Shown in pieces: positions 1-56,185 of a stretch of 64,000 nt of DNA. The notes beneath the pieces were generated by a model, which saw nothing but the letters and a program-made list of their open reading frames with translations, searched no databases and was not told where the DNA came from. This DNA is from Rufibacter roseus (GTDB lineage: Bacteria; Bacteroidota; Bacteroidia; Cytophagales; Hymenobacteraceae), in the NCBI RefSeq assembly GCF_001647285.1, contig NZ_LRML01000016.1, positions 1 to 64,000 of the forward strand, given 5' to 3'. Made by a program: the position numbers and the translations under genes. Each line of letters begins with the position of its first letter. The stretch's first letter is position 1.

Positions 1-56
1 AATCATGCTACGGCCGACGGCCTAGCACGTTGTATTTTTATACGAGACCGTTGGCA
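1..56 (+). repeat. attC-like site A (left part outside window)
   Basis: The site holds the core CGGCCGACGGCCTAGCAC and ends in an R'-like box GTTGGCA at 50-56. The left half (R'' and L'') lies before base 1, so the cassette array starts upstream of the window. The same core recurs in sites B to F. Confidence 0.6.
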
Positions 57-71
57 TTAGTTATAAAAAAT

Positions 72-614
72 ATGAAAGTCTATTTTATAGCTCTTTTGCA
101 ATTCTTTCTTTTATTCCCTTTGCAAAGGGATAGAATTAAAATGCCAAAGGAATTCGAAAAACCAGAAAAATGGTTGGAGGCTGACAAAAGAGCTAGTTTA
201 GGATATTTCCAAAAACCAAACCCCGAATTACAAACAATGGATTTGGCGAAAGTAATTTCTATCGTCAATTCGGAACGCGATTTGAAAAAGCTATTTTTAG
301 CAAGAGATTGGTGCAGAGAGAATTATCAATTATGCTTCCCGATACTGATAGAGAAGCTTACTGATACTACATATGTCGGTTTAACGAATTTTATTGACCT
401 AATGGTGCCTGGAAGAAATGAGAAATCATGGATTTATGGCCACGGTGGGGTTGTGAATGAGGACATATACATTAGGGCTGGCAGGGCCTCATATATCCTG
501 AACCAAATAACAGGTGAGGACTTTGCTGTAGTAAGGGTAAAAACAGATTACAATATACTAAAGCAATTTAAAAAGGCTTGGAATGCTTATGTAAAAGCAT
601 TAAAGAAAAAATAA
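72..614 (+). CDS. Cassette 1: hypothetical exported protein
   Basis: I do not recognise this 180-residue protein. It opens with a hydrophobic stretch (VYFIALLQFFLLFPL), which suggests a signal peptide or membrane anchor, followed by a charged, mostly helical soluble part. The ATG at 72 is preferred because an earlier in-frame start at 30 would lie inside the attC-like palindrome. The gene stands alone between sites A and B on the same strand as all other cassette genes, and no promoter of its own is obvious. The base composition is A+T-rich like its cassette neighbours. Function is unknown. Confidence 0.65.
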   Translation: MKVYFIALLQFFLLFPLQRDRIKMPKEFEKPEKWLEADKRASLGYFQKPNPELQTMDLAKVISIVNSERDLKKLFLARDWCRENYQLCFPILIEKLTDTTYVGLTNFIDLMVPGRNEKSWIYGHGGVVNEDIYIRAGRASYILNQITGEDFAVVRVKTDYNILKQFKKAWNAYVKALKKK

Positions 615-618
615 CATC

Positions 619-686
619 TGCCAACATTGTTTAAAATTATGCACCGGCCGACGGCCTAGCACACTTTTTACACGAGTCCGCTATGC
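619..686 (+). repeat. attC-like site B
   Basis: The R''-like box TGCCAAC (619-625) is perfectly complementary to GTTGGCA (50-56), the start of the cassette it closes. The central core is CGGCCGACGGCCTAGCAC, as in site A. The R' side is degenerate (GCTATGC at 680-686 where GTT is expected). Confidence 0.6.
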
Positions 687-696
687 AATAGTAATC

Positions 697-1290
697 ATGA
701 AGGTTCCTAAAGGTTGTCTAATTCCCATAGTTGTATTGGAGGTGCTTTTTGGAGCCCTTTATATATCAGGCTTAAATACTGAATATTACTATGCAGAATT
801 GTCTAGTGGCAAAGAGAATTTAGTTTTAGTTAATGATGAAAATTTTAAATTAACGTTTGCTTTAAGTATAGATAAGGATACAGAGAGCTCAAAAGCTGGT
901 TTAATATTAGCTGGGTTTACCCTGACAAGTGTTAATAATGACGTCAGAATTGATACAGCAGAAATTATGACTTTTAATTCTATTGGAGAGCCTTTAGAAT
1001 TAGATAGTGTTTATGCCATTGATGGATTTTATAGTTGGAAGGAAGAGATGAATTATAAATCAAAATCTTTTCCCTTGCTTCCAGATAAATTCAAGACAGT
1101 CAGTAAAAGTATTGAAGCTTACTTTGTTTACAGTTGGCGCTTCAAGATAAACAAAATACATGTCGACACTGTGCAGGTAAAGGTTAATACCACAGTTAAA
1201 TCTAAGAACAGAACTTATAGGATTGAAGAGACTTATCCCTTTGAATTGAAGTCAAGGATTTATTTTAGAAGTCCAATAAGAGCACATTAA
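697..1290 (+). CDS. Cassette 2: membrane-anchored hypothetical protein
   Basis: This is a 197-residue protein of unknown family. Residues 8-26 (LIPIVVLEVLFGALYISGL) form one hydrophobic segment, probably an N-terminal membrane anchor or uncleaved signal. The rest alternates polar and hydrophobic residues in a way that suggests a beta-rich exported domain. The start at 697 is the first ATG after site B. The gene is a single-gene cassette between sites B and C. No catalytic motif is visible and no function is proposed. Confidence 0.65.
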   Translation: MKVPKGCLIPIVVLEVLFGALYISGLNTEYYYAELSSGKENLVLVNDENFKLTFALSIDKDTESSKAGLILAGFTLTSVNNDVRIDTAEIMTFNSIGEPLELDSVYAIDGFYSWKEEMNYKSKSFPLLPDKFKTVSKSIEAYFVYSWRFKINKIHVDTVQVKVNTTVKSKNRTYRIEETYPFELKSRIYFRSPIRAH

Positions 1291-1298
1291 AAACTACA

Positions 1299-1366
1299 GC
1301 ATAGAACATTGTATAAACATCAGCTCCGCCGACGGCTGTCGCCGTCGTTTATACTAAGCGTTGATA
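1299..1366 (+). repeat. attC-like site C
   Basis: The inner arms GTATAAAC (1311-1318) and GTTTATAC (1347-1354) are perfect 8-base complements, equivalent to L'' and L'. The left outer box GCATAG (1299-1304) pairs with CTATGC (681-686) at the start of cassette 2. The R'-like box is GTTGATA (1360-1366). The middle holds the core variant CCGCCGACGGCTGTCGCCG. Confidence 0.65.
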
Positions 1367-1379
1367 ATAATAAGCAAGT

Positions 1380-2228
1380 ATGAAAAGAAGCCATCCATTC
1401 CTATTCATGTTAGCGATCATATTTGTGTTTAGCTCTTGTGATGGGCAGCTTACCTCCATCGACAGGGTTAGCTTTGACAACTTCTTCCCCAAGCCCAATA
1501 AAGATCTGTCTAAAATTATTGGAAACACTTTACTCTTGAAAAGCGGGTCAGATACAATATATCTTTCTATATCATCAGACAAGGATATAAATCTTATAAC
1601 TGAGACGCTATCTGGCGACACTGTCTTCTACGGCAAAGTGAATAAGTTCAGGGGGTTGTACTACTTTAGTCAAGCTGTGAACGACACCTCTTATCTGATT
1701 CATGCTGTTAAAATTTCAGATAATTTAATCTATGGACTTACATCTGTTTTTCAGCAAACAGCTCTTATCGATGATGAAATAAGAAAAGGGAAGTTTCCCA
1801 AACTTGTAAAGTACATCCCCACGGACAGCAGCATTTTTATGCTAAGAACTGATAAGAGAGAGATGAGAAAGTTATATAGCAGCATAATAGGCACGATAAA
1901 ACCTGACACAGTACTTCAGGATCAGCAAAAAGGAGGAGTTGAATTAGATGCAGTTGCTGCTAAAGAACAGATCATGGATGCGGAAGAATCAGAGCTCTTC
2001 TTCAAGGTATACCCAAACCCTGTCTCAGACTTTGTGAATGTAATGCTGCAAGAGCAAAACATAAATTACCAGCTTATTGACTTAAATGGAAAGACAATGG
2101 CTACAGGAATATTAAGCAAACAGACAAACAGAATTAGCACAGCAACGCTGACGAATGGCATCTACATATTAAACCTTACAGGTGCAGGTGGTAAAACAAA
2201 AGAATCTGTTAGAATAGTAAAGAATTAG
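1380..2228 (+). CDS. Cassette 3: predicted lipoprotein with T9SS type A sorting domain
   Basis: The 282-residue protein begins with a signal peptide ending in the lipobox-like FSSC, so it is probably lipidated. The C-terminal part (about residues 208-282) starts with VYPNPVSDFVNV and ends with GIYILNL and a short basic tail, the pattern of the Por secretion tail recognised by the type IX secretion system. The middle region is unrecognised. A lipobox and a T9SS tail together are unusual. The stop codon abuts the R'' box of the next site. It is a single-gene cassette whose product must rely on the host's T9SS. Confidence 0.75.
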   Translation: MKRSHPFLFMLAIIFVFSSCDGQLTSIDRVSFDNFFPKPNKDLSKIIGNTLLLKSGSDTIYLSISSDKDINLITETLSGDTVFYGKVNKFRGLYYFSQAVNDTSYLIHAVKISDNLIYGLTSVFQQTALIDDEIRKGKFPKLVKYIPTDSSIFMLRTDKREMRKLYSSIIGTIKPDTVLQDQQKGGVELDAVAAKEQIMDAEESELFFKVYPNPVSDFVNVMLQEQNINYQLIDLNGKTMATGILSKQTNRISTATLTNGIYILNLTGAGGKTKESVRIVKN

Positions 2229-2284
2229 TATTGTTAACCACACCTTTACCATAGCTACGCAATGGCAAAGCCAATCCGTTGGCA
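2229..2284 (+). repeat. attC-like site G (short variant)
   Basis: The R''-like TATTGTTAAC (2229-2238), directly after the stop codon, pairs over 10 positions (8 Watson-Crick, 2 G-T) with GTTGATAATA (1360-1369) at the start of the same cassette. The R' is GTTGGCA (2278-2284). The interior (CACACCTTTACC...) belongs to a second subtype, also seen at 3537-3592. Confidence 0.5.
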
Positions 2285-2313
2285 GAAATTTTAAATATGA
2301 ACTTGAATATTGC

Positions 2314-2712
2314 ATGCGGTATAAAATGGTTGAAATAATAGGTAGTTATAGATTTCTGATTATTGTAGCAACCTTGTTAATTACTACGTTGATAATCGAG
2401 TCTCCTTTTACATTTCGACATACAGAAGAACCACCTACACTTTTATATTTCGCAATATTATTTATTACTACAATTGTTTACCTTATCCCATCCGACAAAT
2501 TAATAACTGCAGAAAAATTAATATTAAGTCTGTTTATCGTAAGCTTATCGATGCTTGGAGGATTATGGTTTACAAATTTTACTTTGGGAGCTCTCTATGG
2601 TTACGACGATTATTTTGGTTATCTTGAGTCGCCCGACCTTTTAGAAAGCTTTACATTTTATTTTACTTCTTCTTTATTAAGCATTGGGGCATTCTCAATT
2701 ATCCTAAAATAG
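2314..2712 (+). CDS. Cassette 4: small integral membrane protein
   Basis: This is a 132-residue hydrophobic protein with about four predicted membrane helices (roughly residues 12-30, 43-60, 68-88 and 113-131), with TEEPP and TNFTLGALYGYDDYFGY in the loops. I do not recognise the family. ATG 2314 is used; an alternative is ATG 2326 (MVEII). The cassette is the cleanest unit of the array, because its first ten bases (2278-2287) and its R'' box (2734-2743) are perfect complements. Confidence 0.65.
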   Translation: MRYKMVEIIGSYRFLIIVATLLITTLIIESPFTFRHTEEPPTLLYFAILFITTIVYLIPSDKLITAEKLILSLFIVSLSMLGGLWFTNFTLGALYGYDDYFGYLESPDLLESFTFYFTSSLLSIGAFSIILK

Positions 2713-2736
2713 GAAACAAGCAATTAAAAAAACTTC

Positions 2737-2803
2737 TGCCAACAACGTGTGAACCTCACCTCGGCCGACGGCTTTGCACGCCTCATGCACGAGGCCGTTG
2801 GCA
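2737..2803 (+). repeat. attC-like site D
   Basis: Outer boxes TGCCAAC (2737-2743) and GTTGGCA (2797-2803) are perfect complements. Inside them CGTG/TGA pairs with TCA/CACG leaving a 2-base bulge, reminiscent of the extrahelical bases of attC hairpins. The core is CGGCCGACGGCTTTGCACG. Confidence 0.65.
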
Positions 2804-2821
2804 CCAATTAAAAATTATGAA

Positions 2822-3526
2822 ATGAAGTCTATTATTAGATTAATCTTCTTAAGCATAATTTGCACTTCTTGTATGTTTAAGGTTCCGTCCGATTTAAAGC
2901 AAAATTTTAAATATTGCTTTAATGGGGGAAACACTGGCTTGGACTCATTGATAAATTTACAGGGTTATTATACAATGGGATATATAAGTGGTAATTATCC
3001 CTATATTAAAAACAAAAATTATTATTCGAATAACATTTCTAAACGTCAATTTGATTACAATACCATCGAAAATATTGATACATTAGATATTCATTTAATG
3101 TTTTTTAAAGATGGCACCTTCCTATATAATTTTTTTTCAGGAAATCGTCAAAAGAGCATTTCTGAATATTTCAAATGGATTGTAGAAGCTGCCGATGAAA
3201 GAGAAAAGAATAGATTTTACAAAGGTTACCGTTGGGGTAGCTATATTGTATCTAATGATACTATTAAGGCTCAATGGTTCAATATACCAGGAAGTTTAAA
3301 TGATTCTTGGTATAGTGGAGAAGTCTGGTTTCAAATACTCTCCAAAAATGAGTTGCAGGAAATAAATCATCCAAAAAGTATGGAGCAAAAAGAAAAAGCG
3401 AAAAAGGGAGGAATTGCTAGATTCAATTCACTTCCAGCCAGATTTACTCCAGTAGAAATATTACCCAATCCTGATGCCAAAATCAAAGAAGAGGAATGGT
3501 TTTGGTGCAAACCTACCAAAATATAA
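2822..3526 (+). CDS. Cassette 5: hypothetical lipoprotein
   Basis: The protein of about 234 residues starts MKSIIRLIFLSIICTSC, a signal peptide with a lipobox Cys. I chose ATG 2822 because an upstream in-frame ATG (2774) falls inside attC-like site D. The mature part is rich in aromatic residues and has no motif I recognise; YYTMGY, FFKDGTFLYNF and YRWGSYIVSNDTI resemble the regular strands of small Bacteroidota lipoproteins with a beta-barrel (lipocalin-like) fold. That is inference only. It is a single-gene cassette. Confidence 0.65.
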   Translation: MKSIIRLIFLSIICTSCMFKVPSDLKQNFKYCFNGGNTGLDSLINLQGYYTMGYISGNYPYIKNKNYYSNNISKRQFDYNTIENIDTLDIHLMFFKDGTFLYNFFSGNRQKSISEYFKWIVEAADEREKNRFYKGYRWGSYIVSNDTIKAQWFNIPGSLNDSWYSGEVWFQILSKNELQEINHPKSMEQKEKAKKGGIARFNSLPARFTPVEILPNPDAKIKEEEWFWCKPTKI

Positions 3527-3536
3527 TAAAATAACA

Positions 3537-3592
3537 GGTGCTAATCACACCTATACGGCAGCTAGGTCGCTGCATAGCCAAGTACTTGGGCA
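3537..3592 (+). repeat. attC-like site G2 (short variant)
   Basis: GGTGCTAAT (3537-3545) pairs with GTTGGCACC (2797-2805), the start of cassette 5, with 7 Watson-Crick and 2 G-T pairs. The interior CACACCTATACGGCAGCTAG resembles site G. The R' side CTTGGGC (3585-3591) is degenerate. Confidence 0.45.
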
Positions 3593-3607
3593 ATATTGAA
3601 AAGAATT

Positions 3608-4261
3608 ATGAAAAGCATTTTACCCCTTCTTGTATCTATTATTCTAATTGCTTCATGTTCTACCCAGAAAGAGCAGATAAACCTATTGCCAATGTATGGG
3701 CATGCGAAGAAGAAACCATATCAGTTGGAGGCTGATAAAGCTTTCCTTGAAAGGGTGGATAAAGAATTCAGTAATAGAAAAGAAGCATCTGAGCATTATT
3801 CAGAGCTTGCTTGGGGCTATTATGAAAAAGGCGATTTGGCGACTGCCATGAGGCGCTTTAATCAGGCATGGCTTCTTGACAGCCTTAACTGCCAACCTTA
3901 TTGGGGATTCGGAAACATATATGGAATACAGGGTAAAGTTGAGGAGTCAATAGATTTCCTTAAAAAGGCAATGGAGCTAAACTGTACAAACCCAGGTATT
4001 CTTGAAGCCTTCACCTCCAATTGGCTTGAACTGTACGTAAGACGCAAGGACAACCAATACTTAGATAATGCAGAGAAGTCAATCAGTGAAAGTTTGAAAT
4101 CAGACCCAACTAACGCCCGGATACTCTATCAGAAGGCTGAATACTTTTACCATCGGGAAAATTTCGACTCTGCATATGTGTATGCTGACAAAGCTATAAA
4201 AATTGACTCTTCTTCTGTTTCTTCTGAATTCATGCAAATTTTAAAGACTAAGAAGAAATAA
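3608..4261 (+). CDS. Cassette 6: TPR-containing lipoprotein
   Basis: This protein of about 217 residues starts MKSILPLLVSIILIASC, a lipoprotein signal. ATG 3608 is preferred over the TTG at 3596. From about residue 60 it shows tetratricopeptide-like helices: YSELAWGYYEKGDLATAMRR, PYWGFGNIYGIQGKVEESID and ILYQKAEYFYHRENFDSAYV carry the small/aromatic spacing of TPR repeats. It is therefore probably a membrane-anchored protein-interaction scaffold; the partner is unknown. It is a single-gene cassette closed by the best attC-like site of the array. Confidence 0.7.
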   Translation: MKSILPLLVSIILIASCSTQKEQINLLPMYGHAKKKPYQLEADKAFLERVDKEFSNRKEASEHYSELAWGYYEKGDLATAMRRFNQAWLLDSLNCQPYWGFGNIYGIQGKVEESIDFLKKAMELNCTNPGILEAFTSNWLELYVRRKDNQYLDNAEKSISESLKSDPTNARILYQKAEYFYHRENFDSAYVYADKAIKIDSSSVSSEFMQILKTKKK

Positions 4262-4294
4262 AAGGTTTATTGGTAGTTAAAGTTAAGAAAAACA

Positions 4295-4367
4295 TTGGCT
4301 AACGGCCTAGTGTAAAAGGCATCTTCGGCCGACGACCTTCGCCGCCGTTTACACTAGCGTTAGCCAA
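4295..4367 (+). repeat. attC-like site E (near-perfect)
   Basis: Left arm TTGGCTAACG (4295-4304), a 2-base bulge GC, then CTAGTGTAAA (4307-4316) pair perfectly with TTTACACTAG (4348-4357) and CGTTAGCCAA (4358-4367). That gives 20 base pairs interrupted only by a 2-base bulge, a 73-base site, a GTTAGCC box at 4359-4365 and a 31-base G+C-rich centre containing CGGCCGACGACCTTCGCCG. The R''-L''-spacer-L'-R' architecture, length and one-sided bulge match integron attC sites. Confidence 0.75.
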
Positions 4368-4384
4368 AACTGAAAAATGAAAAA

Positions 4385-4765
4385 TTGGGAGAATATAAAA
4401 GACCATATGATTCGCCGCCTCCAAGGTCATATAAGGCTTGGCTTAACGACCTTGGACTGAACTGCGTTGGCAACTGCCCACCCGATGATGAGGTGTTTAC
4501 TTTCGACGATTTCAGTTCAATACCAGAAGTAAAACTCTATAAAATCAAAGAAACTGACCTTTACGAATTCTGGAGACAATACGGTGATGTGTGGGGTGAA
4601 AGAAGGACTGTTGAGGAATGGCTTAACGACTTAGAACTTGAAATAATTGACCCGACAGAGGAAGAGTTAAAGGAATTAAATCTTTACCTGGGCTATGATG
4701 AATTTATGGATTGGGGAGCCGGGATTATTACAGGAAAAATGAAAAACCAGATTTCAATCTTATAG
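4385..4765 (+). CDS. Cassette 7: acidic hypothetical protein, start possibly frameshifted
   Basis: This soluble acidic protein of 126 residues contains two copies of a W-L-N-D-L motif (near residues 19 and 77), suggesting an internal duplication. I do not recognise the family. The only in-frame start is TTG 4385. An ATG at 4377 lies one base out of frame: one more A in the AAAAA run at 4380-4384 would give MKKLGEYKRPYDSPPP. The gene may thus carry a one-base deletion or a sequence error. It lies between sites E and F. Confidence 0.55.
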   Translation: MGEYKRPYDSPPPRSYKAWLNDLGLNCVGNCPPDDEVFTFDDFSSIPEVKLYKIKETDLYEFWRQYGDVWGERRTVEEWLNDLELEIIDPTEEELKELNLYLGYDEFMDWGAGIITGKMKNQISIL

Positions 4766-4823
4766 ATTTCCTCTCAAACCTCTTTAAAAAGAAGTGAGGC
4801 AGAACTAAAAAGAAAACCTACCC

Positions 4824-4887
4824 CTAACACTGTTTAAACGCCAGCATCGGCCGACGGCCTCGTCCGCCGTTTAGCCAAGACATTGTA
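4824..4887 (+). repeat. attC-like site F (degenerate)
   Basis: The site has CTAAC (4824-4828), complementary to GTTAG (4359-4363) at the start of cassette 7, the shared core CGGCCGACGGCCTCG, and a GTTTA at 4859-4863 facing TAAAC at 4834-4838. The R' side is eroded (CATTGTA at 4881-4887). Confidence 0.45.
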
Positions 4888-4906
4888 CTTCACAAAAAAC
4901 AACAAA

Positions 4907-5632
4907 ATGATAGAAGGATTGCCTAACTGGGTTAATGTGTTGTTTCTGCTAACAGTGGTAGCAACAGTTGTGTTGTTCTATTATGCAAATGGTAAAAGAA
5001 CAAAACTGCTTTTTGGTTTTATACTTTGGAGCGTCTTGCAATCTGTTTTAGCCATTAATGGTTTCTATCAAATCACTGACACGCTTCCTCCTAGATTTAT
5101 TTTGGTGTTATTACCAGCCGCCATCATGATGGTGATAGGGCTTTTGCCTAAGTACCGTACTAAGCTGTTAAAAAATAGAAATAGAACCCTAAGCACTTTA
5201 CTTCATACGGTAAGAGTACCAGTAGAAGTCGTTCTATTTTACCTCTTCATATATGGAATGGTACCAGAACTCATGACTTTTGAAGGAAGGAATTTTGATA
5301 TAGCAGCTGGGTTAACAGCACCAATTGTAGGAGTTTTGATTTTTACAAAAAGAGCTAGTAACAAAATGCTGATTGCCTGGAATGCTTTTGCCTTATGCTT
5401 AGTACTTTTTATTCTATTCAATGGAATATTGTCATCAGAATTGCCTTTTCAGCAATTTGGTTTCGAGCAACCCAATAGAGCCATTAACTATTTCCCGTTC
5501 ATCCTCCTTCCAGCTGTTGTGGTGCCTACTGTTGTTTATACCCATTTATCTGATTTGATAGCACTTTTAAGTGAAAGAACAACAGTTAACCACAAGGCAC
5601 AGATTCTAAATTCTGCTACGCCTCGGTCATAG
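4907..5632 (+). CDS. Cassette 8, gene 1: multi-pass membrane protein
   Basis: The protein of about 241 residues has around seven hydrophobic helices separated by short loops, including NVLFLLTVVATVVLFYYANG at the N terminus and FILLPAVVVPTVVYTHLSDL near the C terminus. ATG 4907 is preferred to the TTG at 4883, which lies in the attC-like site. There is no recognisable transporter or enzyme motif. Only 31 bases separate its stop from the next gene's ATG and no attC-like site lies between them, so the two genes form one cassette and probably one operon. Confidence 0.65.
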   Translation: MIEGLPNWVNVLFLLTVVATVVLFYYANGKRTKLLFGFILWSVLQSVLAINGFYQITDTLPPRFILVLLPAAIMMVIGLLPKYRTKLLKNRNRTLSTLLHTVRVPVEVVLFYLFIYGMVPELMTFEGRNFDIAAGLTAPIVGVLIFTKRASNKMLIAWNAFALCLVLFILFNGILSSELPFQQFGFEQPNRAINYFPFILLPAVVVPTVVYTHLSDLIALLSERTTVNHKAQILNSATPRS

Positions 5633-5663
5633 TCTGTTCTAATCCTGGCAACCTTTGCAAAAC

Positions 5664-7890: not shown

Positions 7891-7938
7891 ATTAACGTAA
7901 GCCGAGGCCTTCGCCGCCGTGAGTATGAATGCGCTGGT
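7891..7938 (+). repeat. Decayed attC-like core (site H)
   Basis: The sequence GCCGAGGCCTTCGCCGCCG matches the centre of site E, but the flanking arms no longer pair convincingly. It lies just before the start codon at 7953, the position expected of an attC site. Confidence 0.3.
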
Positions 7939-7952
7939 TTAAACTTTAAAAA

Positions 7953-8756
7953 ATGATGAGGCTATTAGTACTAATATTTATTTCTCTATTAAGCCATGAA
8001 GCAGAGATACCCAAGGTAAAGACCAGGGTAATAAAGAATTTTTTCGTGGAAAACGGGAAGAAGAACCTTACTGCTGTTACGAAAGAGAAATACAACAGAA
8101 ACGGGGATCTGGAGTATTATAGTATCTATAAATCCACTAATAAAAGATTTACGGAAGTATTCTTCATCAACAGCTACGACTCATTGAACAGAAGAATTAA
8201 CATCAAGGAATTTGCCGTTGAAAATAAAGATACCGTTAGGAAAACAAACAGAATAATTAAATATTACCCTAACCATACTGTAGAAAAAGTCTATGGCGGG
8301 AACGGCGAACTTCTGTCCAGAGTAGAAAAGCTATTCTCTGATTCCACCTCTCTACTGATCGCTAAAATCAGCTTTTCATTAGTACCTATAGAACCTTTCA
8401 ATTCAGAATGGATGGAAAGTGAAAAATACTACTATGATTCCTCCAGAAGGCTTATTAGAATTTCCCGAATACGTACATTAGGCGCAGACGGCAGAGAGCT
8501 GAAATACGAATACACCGACGAAGCGACAACCATCTGTAAGCAGTATAACAACAACGGAAAGCCGGAAGTAGTGACAACCACAGTAAAGGAACCCAGACAA
8601 AAATTAGAGTTAACCGAAGTCTATTCTGATACCGATACCACCAAAGCCGGAACCAGAACAACCTATAACGCCTACGGATTAATTGAATCTTCTCATAATT
8701 ACCCAGACCAGAACCAAGGTTTTCATGCAGAATATTCTTACCTATACTTTAAATAA
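7953..8756 (+). CDS. Exported YD/MORN-like repeat protein
   Basis: The 267-residue protein has a short N-terminal hydrophobic segment (MMRLLVLIFISLLS), then repeated units of the type Y-N-x-x-G-x-L-x-x-Y (EKYNRNGDLEYYSIYKS, YDSLNRRINIKE, YDSSRRLIRISR, YNAYGLIESSHNY). These resemble the YD or toxin_4-like repeats of RHS-related secreted Bacteroidota proteins. No enzymatic domain is visible. It probably sits on the cell surface or in the periplasm. It may be the last unit of the cassette array. Confidence 0.6.
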   Translation: MMRLLVLIFISLLSHEAEIPKVKTRVIKNFFVENGKKNLTAVTKEKYNRNGDLEYYSIYKSTNKRFTEVFFINSYDSLNRRINIKEFAVENKDTVRKTNRIIKYYPNHTVEKVYGGNGELLSRVEKLFSDSTSLLIAKISFSLVPIEPFNSEWMESEKYYYDSSRRLIRISRIRTLGADGRELKYEYTDEATTICKQYNNNGKPEVVTTTVKEPRQKLELTEVYSDTDTTKAGTRTTYNAYGLIESSHNYPDQNQGFHAEYSYLYFK

Positions 8757-23324: not shown

Positions 23325-24359
23325 ATGTCGCTTTTCAGCAGATGGGTTACATATTTTTTAGTACTGGTTTCAAGCGTGATGCCATTGTGCAGTTTCGGGT
23401 ATTCTAACGGTGGTACCCCTATTAAAAGTGAGAAGCCACAGCCTGCCACTTCTTCCCTGCCTGACCCTTTTGACACTGCTTTCTTTCCTGAGATGTTGGC
23501 CGGTGACGATTCTTTGTCTTGTGTAGTGCCTTTTATTAGGGCAGGTAATTTAATTCTAATTAAAGCCACCGCTGACACAACCGAAGGTAATTTCATACTA
23601 GACACGGGTGCTCAGAACCTGGTATTGAATATTACTTATTTTCGTGACTACCCCACCATCCGGAACTCCACTGCTGAACGCACCAGCGTGAATGGCTCCT
23701 CAGCCTCAGTGGTGAAAACCATGGTAAAAAAACTAACCGTAGGAGATTTAATTTACCAGCGAAGCAGGGCTGACCTGATCAACCTGGGGCACATTGAAAA
23801 TAGCAAAGGATTAAAGATTCTGGGCTTACTGGGCATGGACCTGTTCCGGCAATGCGAGATGATCATTGACTATGAGAAAAGCTTAATTTACTTCCACAGA
23901 GTGGGCAGAAAAGAATTTAAGACCTACCGTAACCGCTTATTAGAAGACACCTCGGCGCTGGCCAGCACCATTCCCTTTGAATTGATGGACAACCGCATAG
24001 TGGTGCGGAGCGAATTAGTGGGCAAAAAAGTGGATTTCATTATTGACAGCGGCGCCGAGACAAACCTGCTGGACAGCCGCCTACCTAATAAAATATTTGA
24101 GAATGTAACCATCACCGGAAGAGTGATGTTAGCCGGTACAGATAGCCGTAAAACAGAAGCTCTTCGGGGGAATTTACGGAACATTGTGTTCGGTACTTTG
24201 TCAATTGACCATTTACCGGTATTGGTAACCAACCTGGAGAAAACCTGTTTTTCTTATAACGGCTGTATAAACGGAGTGCTAGGCTTTGATTTTCTGACGG
24301 TGAACAGCAAAAAGATCGGGTTTAATTTTGTGAGACGAGAAATGTATATATTCAAATGA
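23325..24359 (+). CDS. Exported retropepsin-like aspartic protease
   Basis: The 344-residue protein has an N-terminal signal segment and two aspartic-protease half-domains. Each contains the active-site signature: ILDTGA with D93 and IIDSGA with D241, followed by hydrophobic-hydrophobic-Gly flaps (LLGMDLF and VLGFDFL). Two halves in one chain are like pepsin, while single-domain bacterial homologues dimerise. It is presumably periplasmic or surface-exposed. Its TGA stop overlaps the ATG of the next gene by four bases, so it is translationally coupled to the four-CBM48 protein, which may be its partner or substrate (inference). Confidence 0.8.
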   Translation: MSLFSRWVTYFLVLVSSVMPLCSFGYSNGGTPIKSEKPQPATSSLPDPFDTAFFPEMLAGDDSLSCVVPFIRAGNLILIKATADTTEGNFILDTGAQNLVLNITYFRDYPTIRNSTAERTSVNGSSASVVKTMVKKLTVGDLIYQRSRADLINLGHIENSKGLKILGLLGMDLFRQCEMIIDYEKSLIYFHRVGRKEFKTYRNRLLEDTSALASTIPFELMDNRIVVRSELVGKKVDFIIDSGAETNLLDSRLPNKIFENVTITGRVMLAGTDSRKTEALRGNLRNIVFGTLSIDHLPVLVTNLEKTCFSYNGCINGVLGFDFLTVNSKKIGFNFVRREMYIFK

Positions 24360-55767: not shown

Positions 55768-55771
55768 CTAG

Positions 55772-55845
55772 TGATCCCGTTTGGATTCGAACCAAAGACC
55801 TACTGCTTAGAAGGCAGTTGCTCTATCCAGCTGAGCTACGAGACC
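55772..55845 (-). tRNA. tRNA-Arg (TCT)
   Basis: On the minus strand the 74-base gene runs from GGTCTCG to CGGGATCA. The seven-pair acceptor stem includes two G-T pairs; the anticodon loop CTTCTAA gives TCT, and GGTTCGAATCC is the T-arm. CCA is not encoded. Confidence 0.95.
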
Positions 55846-55910
55846 ATCGAAACGAAAATGAGTAATGGAGAATGTCTTTGTAGTCATCCAACATTACTCA
55901 TCTTTTTTCG

Positions 55911-55984
55911 TCGGGGTGGCAGGATTCGAACCTACGACCTCCACATCCCAAATGTGGCGCGATACCGGGCTACGCTACACCCCG
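55911..55984 (-). tRNA. tRNA-Pro (TGG)
   Basis: On the minus strand the 74-base gene runs from CGGGGTGTAGCG to CACCCCGA. The anticodon stem-loop CACATTTGGGATGTG gives TGG. The T-arm reads GGTTCGAATCC. CCA is not encoded. Confidence 0.95.
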
Positions 55985-56096
55985 AGTCTTGCAATTTCCA
56001 GTTAACCAACTAACTAAAACCTAACCTTCTGGTGAATTGCGGTGCAAAGATATAAAATGAAATTTTCTCGTCAAAATTAATTTACAAGAATATTTC

Positions 56097-56185
<89 letters not shown>

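Follow-up and report, generated by a model that had tools for sequence, protein, structure and literature searches.

An integron-like cassette cluster in a Bacteroidota genome and a tyrosine recombinase lacking the IntI insertion

Among bacterial devices for stockpiling foreign genes, integrons are the best known. Whether mobile (classes 1 to 3) or sedentary in chromosomes, those based on the tyrosine recombinase IntI comprise one-gene cassettes of a few hundred bases, attC sites of the arrangement R''-L''-L'-R' with GTT/AAC ends, whose folding preference for the bottom strand is well established, and an attI site beside the recombinase gene; integrase-less clusters occur elsewhere in the genome. 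All these features are found again in the system described here, which was followed up from a cluster of attC-like sites and small genes at the beginning of a 64,000-base stretch of Bacteroidota DNA. This stretch, hereafter the window, comprises bases 1-64000 of contig C8 in a genome of 5.12 Mb and 39 contigs, and the contig begins at window base 1. Judging from sequence comparisons, the window very probably starts in a decayed cassette cluster of an integron-type system, the platform of which (a recombinase without the IntI-specific insertion, here termed patch-less, with attI and cassettes) lies on another contig.

Integrons are commonly recognized by the IntI insertion, which the archaeal integron paper presents as defining and necessary for integron recombination (PMC9668308). 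According to excerpts of a survey of simple tyrosine recombinases, it is not fully conserved in their integron-like subgroup, and these excerpts do not mention cassette arrays for the members without it (PMC8138268). Bacteroidetes or Bacteroidota are listed among the integron-bearing phyla in three papers (PMC2426708, PMC8618304, PMC9668308); in the IntegronFinder 2.0 study of complete genomes, one complete integron is given, besides Chlorobi and Ignavibacteriae, for Bacteroidetes proper, that of Salinibacter ruber M1 (PMC9024848). In the literature searched, which reached few subscription papers and preprints, no Bacteroidota arrays with a patch-less recombinase were described. On its sequence, the system would be a new form of integron, integron-like on most tests and failing one defining test of the canonical family: unlike that of IntI integrons, its integrase has an N-terminal extension and no insertion, branches as a group of its own in the tree, and is read in the direction of attI and the cassettes. 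The layout alone is not new, since the integrase of Treponema chromosomal integrons is likewise transcribed toward attI, in the cassette direction (PMC3607928); it is described there as intI, and the likeness noted here concerns the described layout.

Over window positions 1-4890, eight attC-like sites and seven same-strand cassettes alternate in the order A, B, C, G, D, G2, E, F, as listed below with bit scores from a covariance model built in this analysis from genome-wide sites, and not from the HattCI or IntegronFinder models.

1..61, forward strand: site A, attC-like, truncated by the contig start with loss of its 5' half; R' GTT at 50-52, 39.4 bits (partial match)
72..614, forward strand: cassette gene 1, 180 amino acids (aa), no Pfam match
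614..689, forward strand: site B, attC-like; R'' AAC ends at 625, R' reads CCG then CTATGC, a GTT without its TT, 51.6 bits
697..1290, forward strand: cassette gene 2, 197 aa, no Pfam match
1296..1371, forward strand: site C, attC-like; R'' AAC ends at 1307, R' GTT at 1360, 52.1 bits
1380..2228, forward strand: cassette gene 3, 282 aa, carrying a sorting tail for type IX secretion (Por_Secre_tail)
2227..2289, forward strand: site G, second kind; AAC ends at 2238, GTT at 2278, without the CGGCCGACGGC core
2314..2712, forward strand: cassette gene 4, 132 aa, hydrophobic stretches by eye
2732..2808, forward strand: site D, attC-like; AAC ends at 2743, GTT at 2797, 51.4 bits, a training row of the model
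2822..3526, forward strand: cassette gene 5, 234 aa, with a 67% homologue in another species' recombinase-linked array
3534..3596, forward strand: site G2, second kind; R'' ends in AAT at 3545, R' CTT at 3585, 13.7 bits (E 0.63)
3608..4261, forward strand: cassette gene 6, 217 aa, TPR protein
4292..4370, forward strand: site E, a long near-perfect palindrome; AAC ends at 4303, GTT at 4359, 46.7 bits
4385..4765, forward strand: cassette gene 7, 126 aa, an open frame from TTG at 4385, with no clean ATG frame
4817..4893, forward strand: site F, attC-like; AAC ends at 4828, R' ATT at 4882, 66.3 bits, a training row
4907..5632, forward strand: gene after site F, 241 aa, its frame overrunning the following half-site
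5572..5583, forward strand: possible R'' half-site of a ninth, ruined site; 7/12 against F, model match at 5587-5652 with 14.8 bits (E 0.33)

The preliminary description, drawn from the letters of the window, had proposed an integron-like gene cassette array in Bacteroidota, a view that the sites, the rule governing cassette ends and the linkage to a recombinase support. The site-gene-site-gene layout on the forward strand stands, together with the model matches; the common core that had been assigned to every site does not. Four of the eight sites (A, B, D, F) contain the exact 11-mer CGGCCGACGGC, C and E have it with one mismatch, and G and G2, which are of a second, shorter kind, lack it. 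With at most two mismatches, the core occurs 16 times in the window, both palindrome strands being counted, against a mean of 4.7 and a maximum of 13 in shuffles (0/100 reaching 16). The covariance check that had been proposed, run with the model built here, matched A, B, C, D, E and F with rough E-values of 5e-15 to 9e-8 for 64 kb; the model was trained on 65 genome-wide rows including D and F, and A, B, C and E are independent of that training. G2 is weak in the model, and G is absent from its matches in the window. The R' triplet is GTT in A, C, G, D and E, whereas B is without its TT, G2 has CTT and F has ATT; with three of eight triplets mutated, the cluster is worn. The array stretch has a GC content of 36.5%, against 44.6% from 9000 onward. 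By eye only, 7893-7940, before a gene at 7953, resembles the second half of an attC, with no model match there. An Rfam scan of the window at gathering scores returned three tRNAs only, the consecutive Arg, Pro and Ser genes on the reverse strand at 55771-56185.

No recombinase was found in the first 9 kb of the window by the searches made, and none in the genome scores above the TIGR02249 cut-off. To this extent the earlier remark that no integrase is visible stands; it is amended by an integrase-like gene elsewhere (contig C14) that is not a canonical IntI. The cluster had been read as either integrase-less or the tail of a chromosomal integron. It is decayed. With its attC-like sites and no recombinase found in the first 9 kb, it may be one of the clusters of attC sites lacking integron integrases (CALIN); at least two sites lie less than 4 kb apart, the CALIN spacing, by the model built here and not by the CALIN-defining ones. 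The stretch upstream is unreadable, as the contig starts at base 1.

The site family extends well beyond the window. The exact core has 61 copies in the genome, so that it recurs at other loci, against two for a reversed control sequence; one of the 61, on C1, sits by eye within unrelated GC-rich sequence. Model matches at E ≤0.1 number at least 90, in about a dozen clusters, a lower bound, as 150 of the 1343 candidates were scored in the genome search. Another array, of seven sites on one strand, occupies the other end of contig C8 (100559-105240, L040). In an alignment of 65 sites (A2), R' has GTT in 61 and R'' has AAC in 58, and the sites are imperfect palindromes of the R''-L''-L'-R' arrangement, as the preliminary description had recognized. 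Their stems covary: 85 cells changed on both sides, versus 25.9 in shuffles and 4-18 in slid versions, the covariation score is 0.243 versus 0.099, and seven pairs of the outer nine-pair stem show changes on both sides. Three of five covariation measures are far above shuffled and slid controls, and two are not above shuffles. The structure of the model was drawn by hand from the alignment, so that the model is biased towards it; plain RNAalifold gave 10 pairs. Folding energies favor the bottom strand over the top in 63/65 sites (mean -14.4 versus -11.2 kcal/mol).

A further test concerns the cassette ends. If a circular cassette joins at G^TT, the bases after the GTT of one site and those before the AAC of the next are a former arm pair. 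In this genome, the R'' at each cassette end agrees with the R' of the previous site at 9.18 of 12 positions over 67 neighbours (permuted 6.03, standard deviation 0.17, 0/10000), and a site agrees with itself at 5.69/12 (81 sites). Nine of the 90 model matches were dropped from this test (two cut-off sites, one opposite-strand match on E, and six lone or far ones), one cut-off site was replaced by window site A, and neighbours more than 1800 nucleotides (nt) apart were left unpaired. The rule also appears in relatives within Hymenobacteraceae (33 pairs, 9.67 versus 6.19 permuted, 0/5000) and in a wider set from the rest of the Bacteroidota with a few further phyla (82 pairs, 9.37 versus 5.91, 0/5000). 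It is weaker in the window (7 pairs, 8.29 versus 6.16, 0.06% of permutations), with site ends set by eye and the pair B-C excluded, B being without TT; a repeat pair links G to D (2278-2292 with 2729-2743, 15 nt, 93%). This comparative evidence points to a mobile unit running from TT to G with complementary ends. The 68 cassettes of the genome have a median length of 637 nt, their longest open reading frame (ORF) lies on the array strand in 65, and the ATG follows GTT at a median of 21.5 nt. Pfam and PADLOC gave few matches for 62 cassette proteins (methyltransferases, TPR, SUKH/Imm26, sorting tails), and no functional theme is therefore claimed.

On contig C14, a tyrosine recombinase of 487 aa is accompanied by a deduced attI and by an array on its own strand. 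By this recombinase, the nearest named kin of the genome are Pontibacter, Rufibacter and Adhaeribacter (Hymenobacteraceae). By its sequence, the recombinase is not a canonical IntI. The span corresponding to its R387-T432 measures 46 residues, against 46-47 in 74/74 relatives and 88 in 23/23 IntI, so that the IntI-specific insertion of about 42 residues is absent from all the former and present in all the latter; 74 of 80 recombinase loci entered this comparison (five with stops within the match and one fragment were excluded), and the IntI set comprised 22 of 30 IntI loci (eight were missed by the ORF filter) plus IntI1. The recombinase scores 205.8 bits with TIGR02249 (integron integrase, cut-off 265) and 202.5 bits with NF040815 (XerA, curated cut-off 220). 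TIGR02249 alone was tried as a family finder and discarded: this genome gave no match at E 1e-40, and all 14 control genomes matched at E 0.001. The best structural relatives of the catalytic half are XerA-type (4a8e, 5hxy), from which the recombinase differs by its N-terminal extension and its link to cassette arrays; the IntI4 structure 2a3v aligns in two stretches, leaving chain residues 211-247 unmatched. In the tree, the family is a separate group, sister to IntI, with two Xer rows on long branches. The R, K, H-x-x-R-H, H and Y that we take to be catalytic are invariant or nearly so in 78 aligned sequences including this one. A Foldseek search with the N-terminal model gave nothing at E ≤0.001, and its first rows (reverse transcriptases, MutS) look like chance. 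Elsewhere in the genome, three weak same-strand sites (C38:180933-182843) lie about 6 kb behind another tyrosine recombinase (C38:188434, a 364-codon open frame).

Linkage of sites to the recombinase was measured with a detector using only YAAC, CGTTR and an 8-base stem, the core being left unused. For 79 loci selected by their resemblance to the recombinase, the downstream stretches (321,690 nt) hold 124 sites on the recombinase strand and 4 on the other, compared with 4 + 2 sites in 680,240 nt upstream; at least one downstream site is found at 39 loci. For 19 loci of the same family as this genome, the counts are 97 downstream on the same strand, 1 on the other and 0 + 0 upstream, where the stretches are short by choice of regions. 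Across the class, 40 loci hand-picked from the matches listed at E 1e-50 (taken as family membership), with a preference for long contigs, gave 56, 1 and 3 + 9, respectively; of the 32 loci whose downstream stretch reaches 2 kb or more, 24 show a site in it. Some species recur between the 79-locus and family sets (e.g., L056/L218, L060/L221). Site lengths cluster near 57 and near 121. The contig stops less than 1 kb behind the recombinase gene in 26/75 loci, as is to be expected where repeats break assemblies. Applied to 20 canonical IntI loci of the phylum, the same detector locates 12 sites on the opposite strand upstream, at 6 loci, and 2 in other positions; judging from these site positions, patch-less and canonical loci have opposite layouts where sites are seen. 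The usual, though not strict, divergence of intI from its cassettes is thus not found here, the sites lying downstream on the same strand.

An attI was sought as the partner GTT of the first site's R'', 30-210 nt behind the recombinase. A match of at least 9/12 was obtained in 52/77 loci, compared with a mean of 5.5 and a maximum of 13 when R'' was permuted among loci 1000 times. The predicted point is often preceded, by eye, by an inverted repeat GATAAACG...CGTTTATC and a few bases. In this genome, it falls at C14:3435 (GTT), about 137 nt behind the stop codon, so that a deduced attI adjoins the integrase gene.

The integron-like gene-capture system looks widespread in Bacteroidota. Recombinase matches at E ≤1e-50 occur, among the matches listed, in 146/295 genomes across the class and 90/156 genera, class names being taken from named kin, and all 18 genus and family relatives have a match at E ≤1e-80. 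A mobilisable plasmid of Pontibacter kalidii, pls1 (L135), holds the recombinase, an attI-like point and six sites, two of them weak, which suggests that the platform itself can travel; an IS110-family transposase is among its cassettes. Patch-less recombinases were also seen in metagenome-assembled genome contigs (L068, L097, L116, L121) labeled unclassified bacterium, Armatimonadetes, Fermentibacterota (Sabulitectum) and Rhodobacteraceae, a matter of transfer or mis-binning.

The platform would thus combine a patch-less tyrosine recombinase that bears an N-terminal extension, an attI lying some 45-175 nt past the stop codon of the recombinase gene, and cassettes in the recombinase direction. 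By analogy with integrons, an attC-like site would fold as a single strand, the bottom strand being the more stable, the active recombinase would cut at G^TT of R', and the cassette, from TT to G, would circularise and re-insert at attI; the N-terminal extension would serve to read the folded DNA. Cassettes in dispersed clusters, that of the window included, would be older ones no longer next to attI.

Exchange of cassettes between species can be followed in a few cases, only 4 of 64 cassette proteins recurring in relatives' arrays (34 stretches). By sequence comparison, one near-identical cassette is common to two species with different neighbours: the BLAST block between contig C24 and species G004 spans 837 nt at 97.1% and extends partly into the left attC core. 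Inspected by eye, close identity runs from CGTT on, the preceding L' and spacer differ, and the neighbours are unrelated, apart from the family likeness of the cores. Window gene 5 has its 67% homologue in 1/18 other genomes searched, G011, as the eighth cassette (by the site calls made here), followed by a short site of the G2 kind; the array there lies downstream of a recombinase gene with a frame disrupted in the final quarter, and the other window genes have no full-length match in that stretch. Homologues of gene 3 occur at 36-39% in two other genomes, and a further two match its tail only. Cassette content is accordingly not conserved among relatives, and the refutation that the preliminary description had tied to a conserved gene order did not come about; a chromosomal control gene (23325-24359) is kept in 9/12 same-genus genomes (0/6 same-order genomes).

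Four array starts (C15, C18, C25, C37) share at least about 84 identical bases, ending there in the assembly. This stretch was considered as an attI or leader and rejected in favor of an insertion sequence, given that four other contig ends carry a second shared sequence directly behind YAACA (C8:105682-105774, C14:1-93, C25:6686-6778, C36:369501-369593). One of these is the far end of the window's own contig. Ends resembling this second sequence in Hymenobacter and Adhaeribacter plasmids are situated at annotated IS110-family transposases in 4/5 rows listed (8 records in all). IS110-family elements that target classical attC (IS1111-attC insertion sequences) are known. Most simply read, a single IS110-type element, to which both kinds of end would belong, is inserted between AACA and the L'' arm in at least four sites. 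This repeated element breaks the assembly and hides how the arrays join.

Several results weigh against an integron-type system run by the patch-less recombinase. The lack of an insertion that is held to be necessary (PMC9668308) speaks against IntI-like chemistry on attC, unless some other part takes its place. The strict structure-only detector used for the linkage counts recovered 0/8 window sites on the array strand, with one match on the opposite strand, and G, G2 and the possible half-site at 5572-5583, which it misses, accordingly rest on the cassette-end rule and reading by eye. The two covariation measures not above shuffles are pairs changed on both sides (7 versus 6.2, reached by 210/500) and further pair types (20 versus 18.2, reached by 66/500). 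Among the recombinase loci, 40/79 have no downstream site (many due to contig ends), as do 8/32 class-wide loci with at least 2 kb downstream, and 25/77 lack an attI match of 9/12 or better; L272, L279 and L289, unlike other relatives, have sites upstream of the recombinase on the opposite strand. Two genomes of another genus in the same family (G100, G194) gave no recombinase match at E 1e-50 among the matches listed. Finally, the bases between L' and GTT are swapped (TAGA versus GAGGC) at both ends of the 97% cassette (L046 reverse complement 3882-4718 versus L219), for which a single G^TT crossover does not account.

These swapped spacers may be accounted for by homologous recombination between cores. 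The palindromes could be repeats resembling repetitive extragenic palindromes or miniature inverted-repeat transposable elements, or terminators, moved by such recombination or by a transposase and delimiting no cassettes; they are many, and GC-rich within a stretch of 36.5% GC. Such repeats would give no reason for R' to match the next site's R'' rather than its own, for one-gene units starting shortly past GTT, or for linkage to one recombinase, and this explanation is very improbable. An equally improbable one accepts the cassettes and assigns strand exchange to the host XerC/XerD, leaving the linked recombinase as helper or regulator. The nearly equal scores of its core with the XerA and integron models and its XerA-type structural matches would fit this role; the conservation of its presumed catalytic residues tells against it, and so does the position of the two Xer-like genes of the genome (C23:503730, C33:231294), more than 200 kb from the nearest array on their contigs.

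An ordinary integron relic, in which classical attC were moved by a canonical IntI since lost or acting from outside, and the patch-less recombinase is an uninvolved neighbour, is improbable, if a little less so. Canonical IntI is common elsewhere in the phylum, with 57/198 genomes above the TIGR02249 cut-off and 58/61 matching genomes outside the class of this genome, and the detector finds sites beside 6/20 canonical IntI genes. Against this stand the lack of any match above the cut-off in this genome, the same-strand arrays that follow patch-less recombinases in many genomes, and the attI-like point behind the stop codon in 52/77 loci. A decayed cluster fed by a patch-less platform thus remains the preferred reading. 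A wider proposal is put forward more tentatively, as possible rather than probable: the class Bacteroidia may have its own old integron branch, whose recombinase never had, or lost, the IntI insertion and reads folded attC via a duplicated N-terminal module like those of fork- or junction-binding repair helicases. The candidate fold considered for the extension is that of HARP, a domain known for its likeness to the damage-recognition domain of XPB.

If the arrays are as common as the counts suggest, a large share of gene exchange in Bacteroidota would so far have gone uncounted, and many cassette genes of unknown function would become recognizable as mobile. What lets an integrase read folded single strands could then be tested by comparing two solutions. 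Should Bacteroidia indeed have a branch of their own, a gene-capture platform that goes unreported as such in searches based on IntI would be present in about half of the class.

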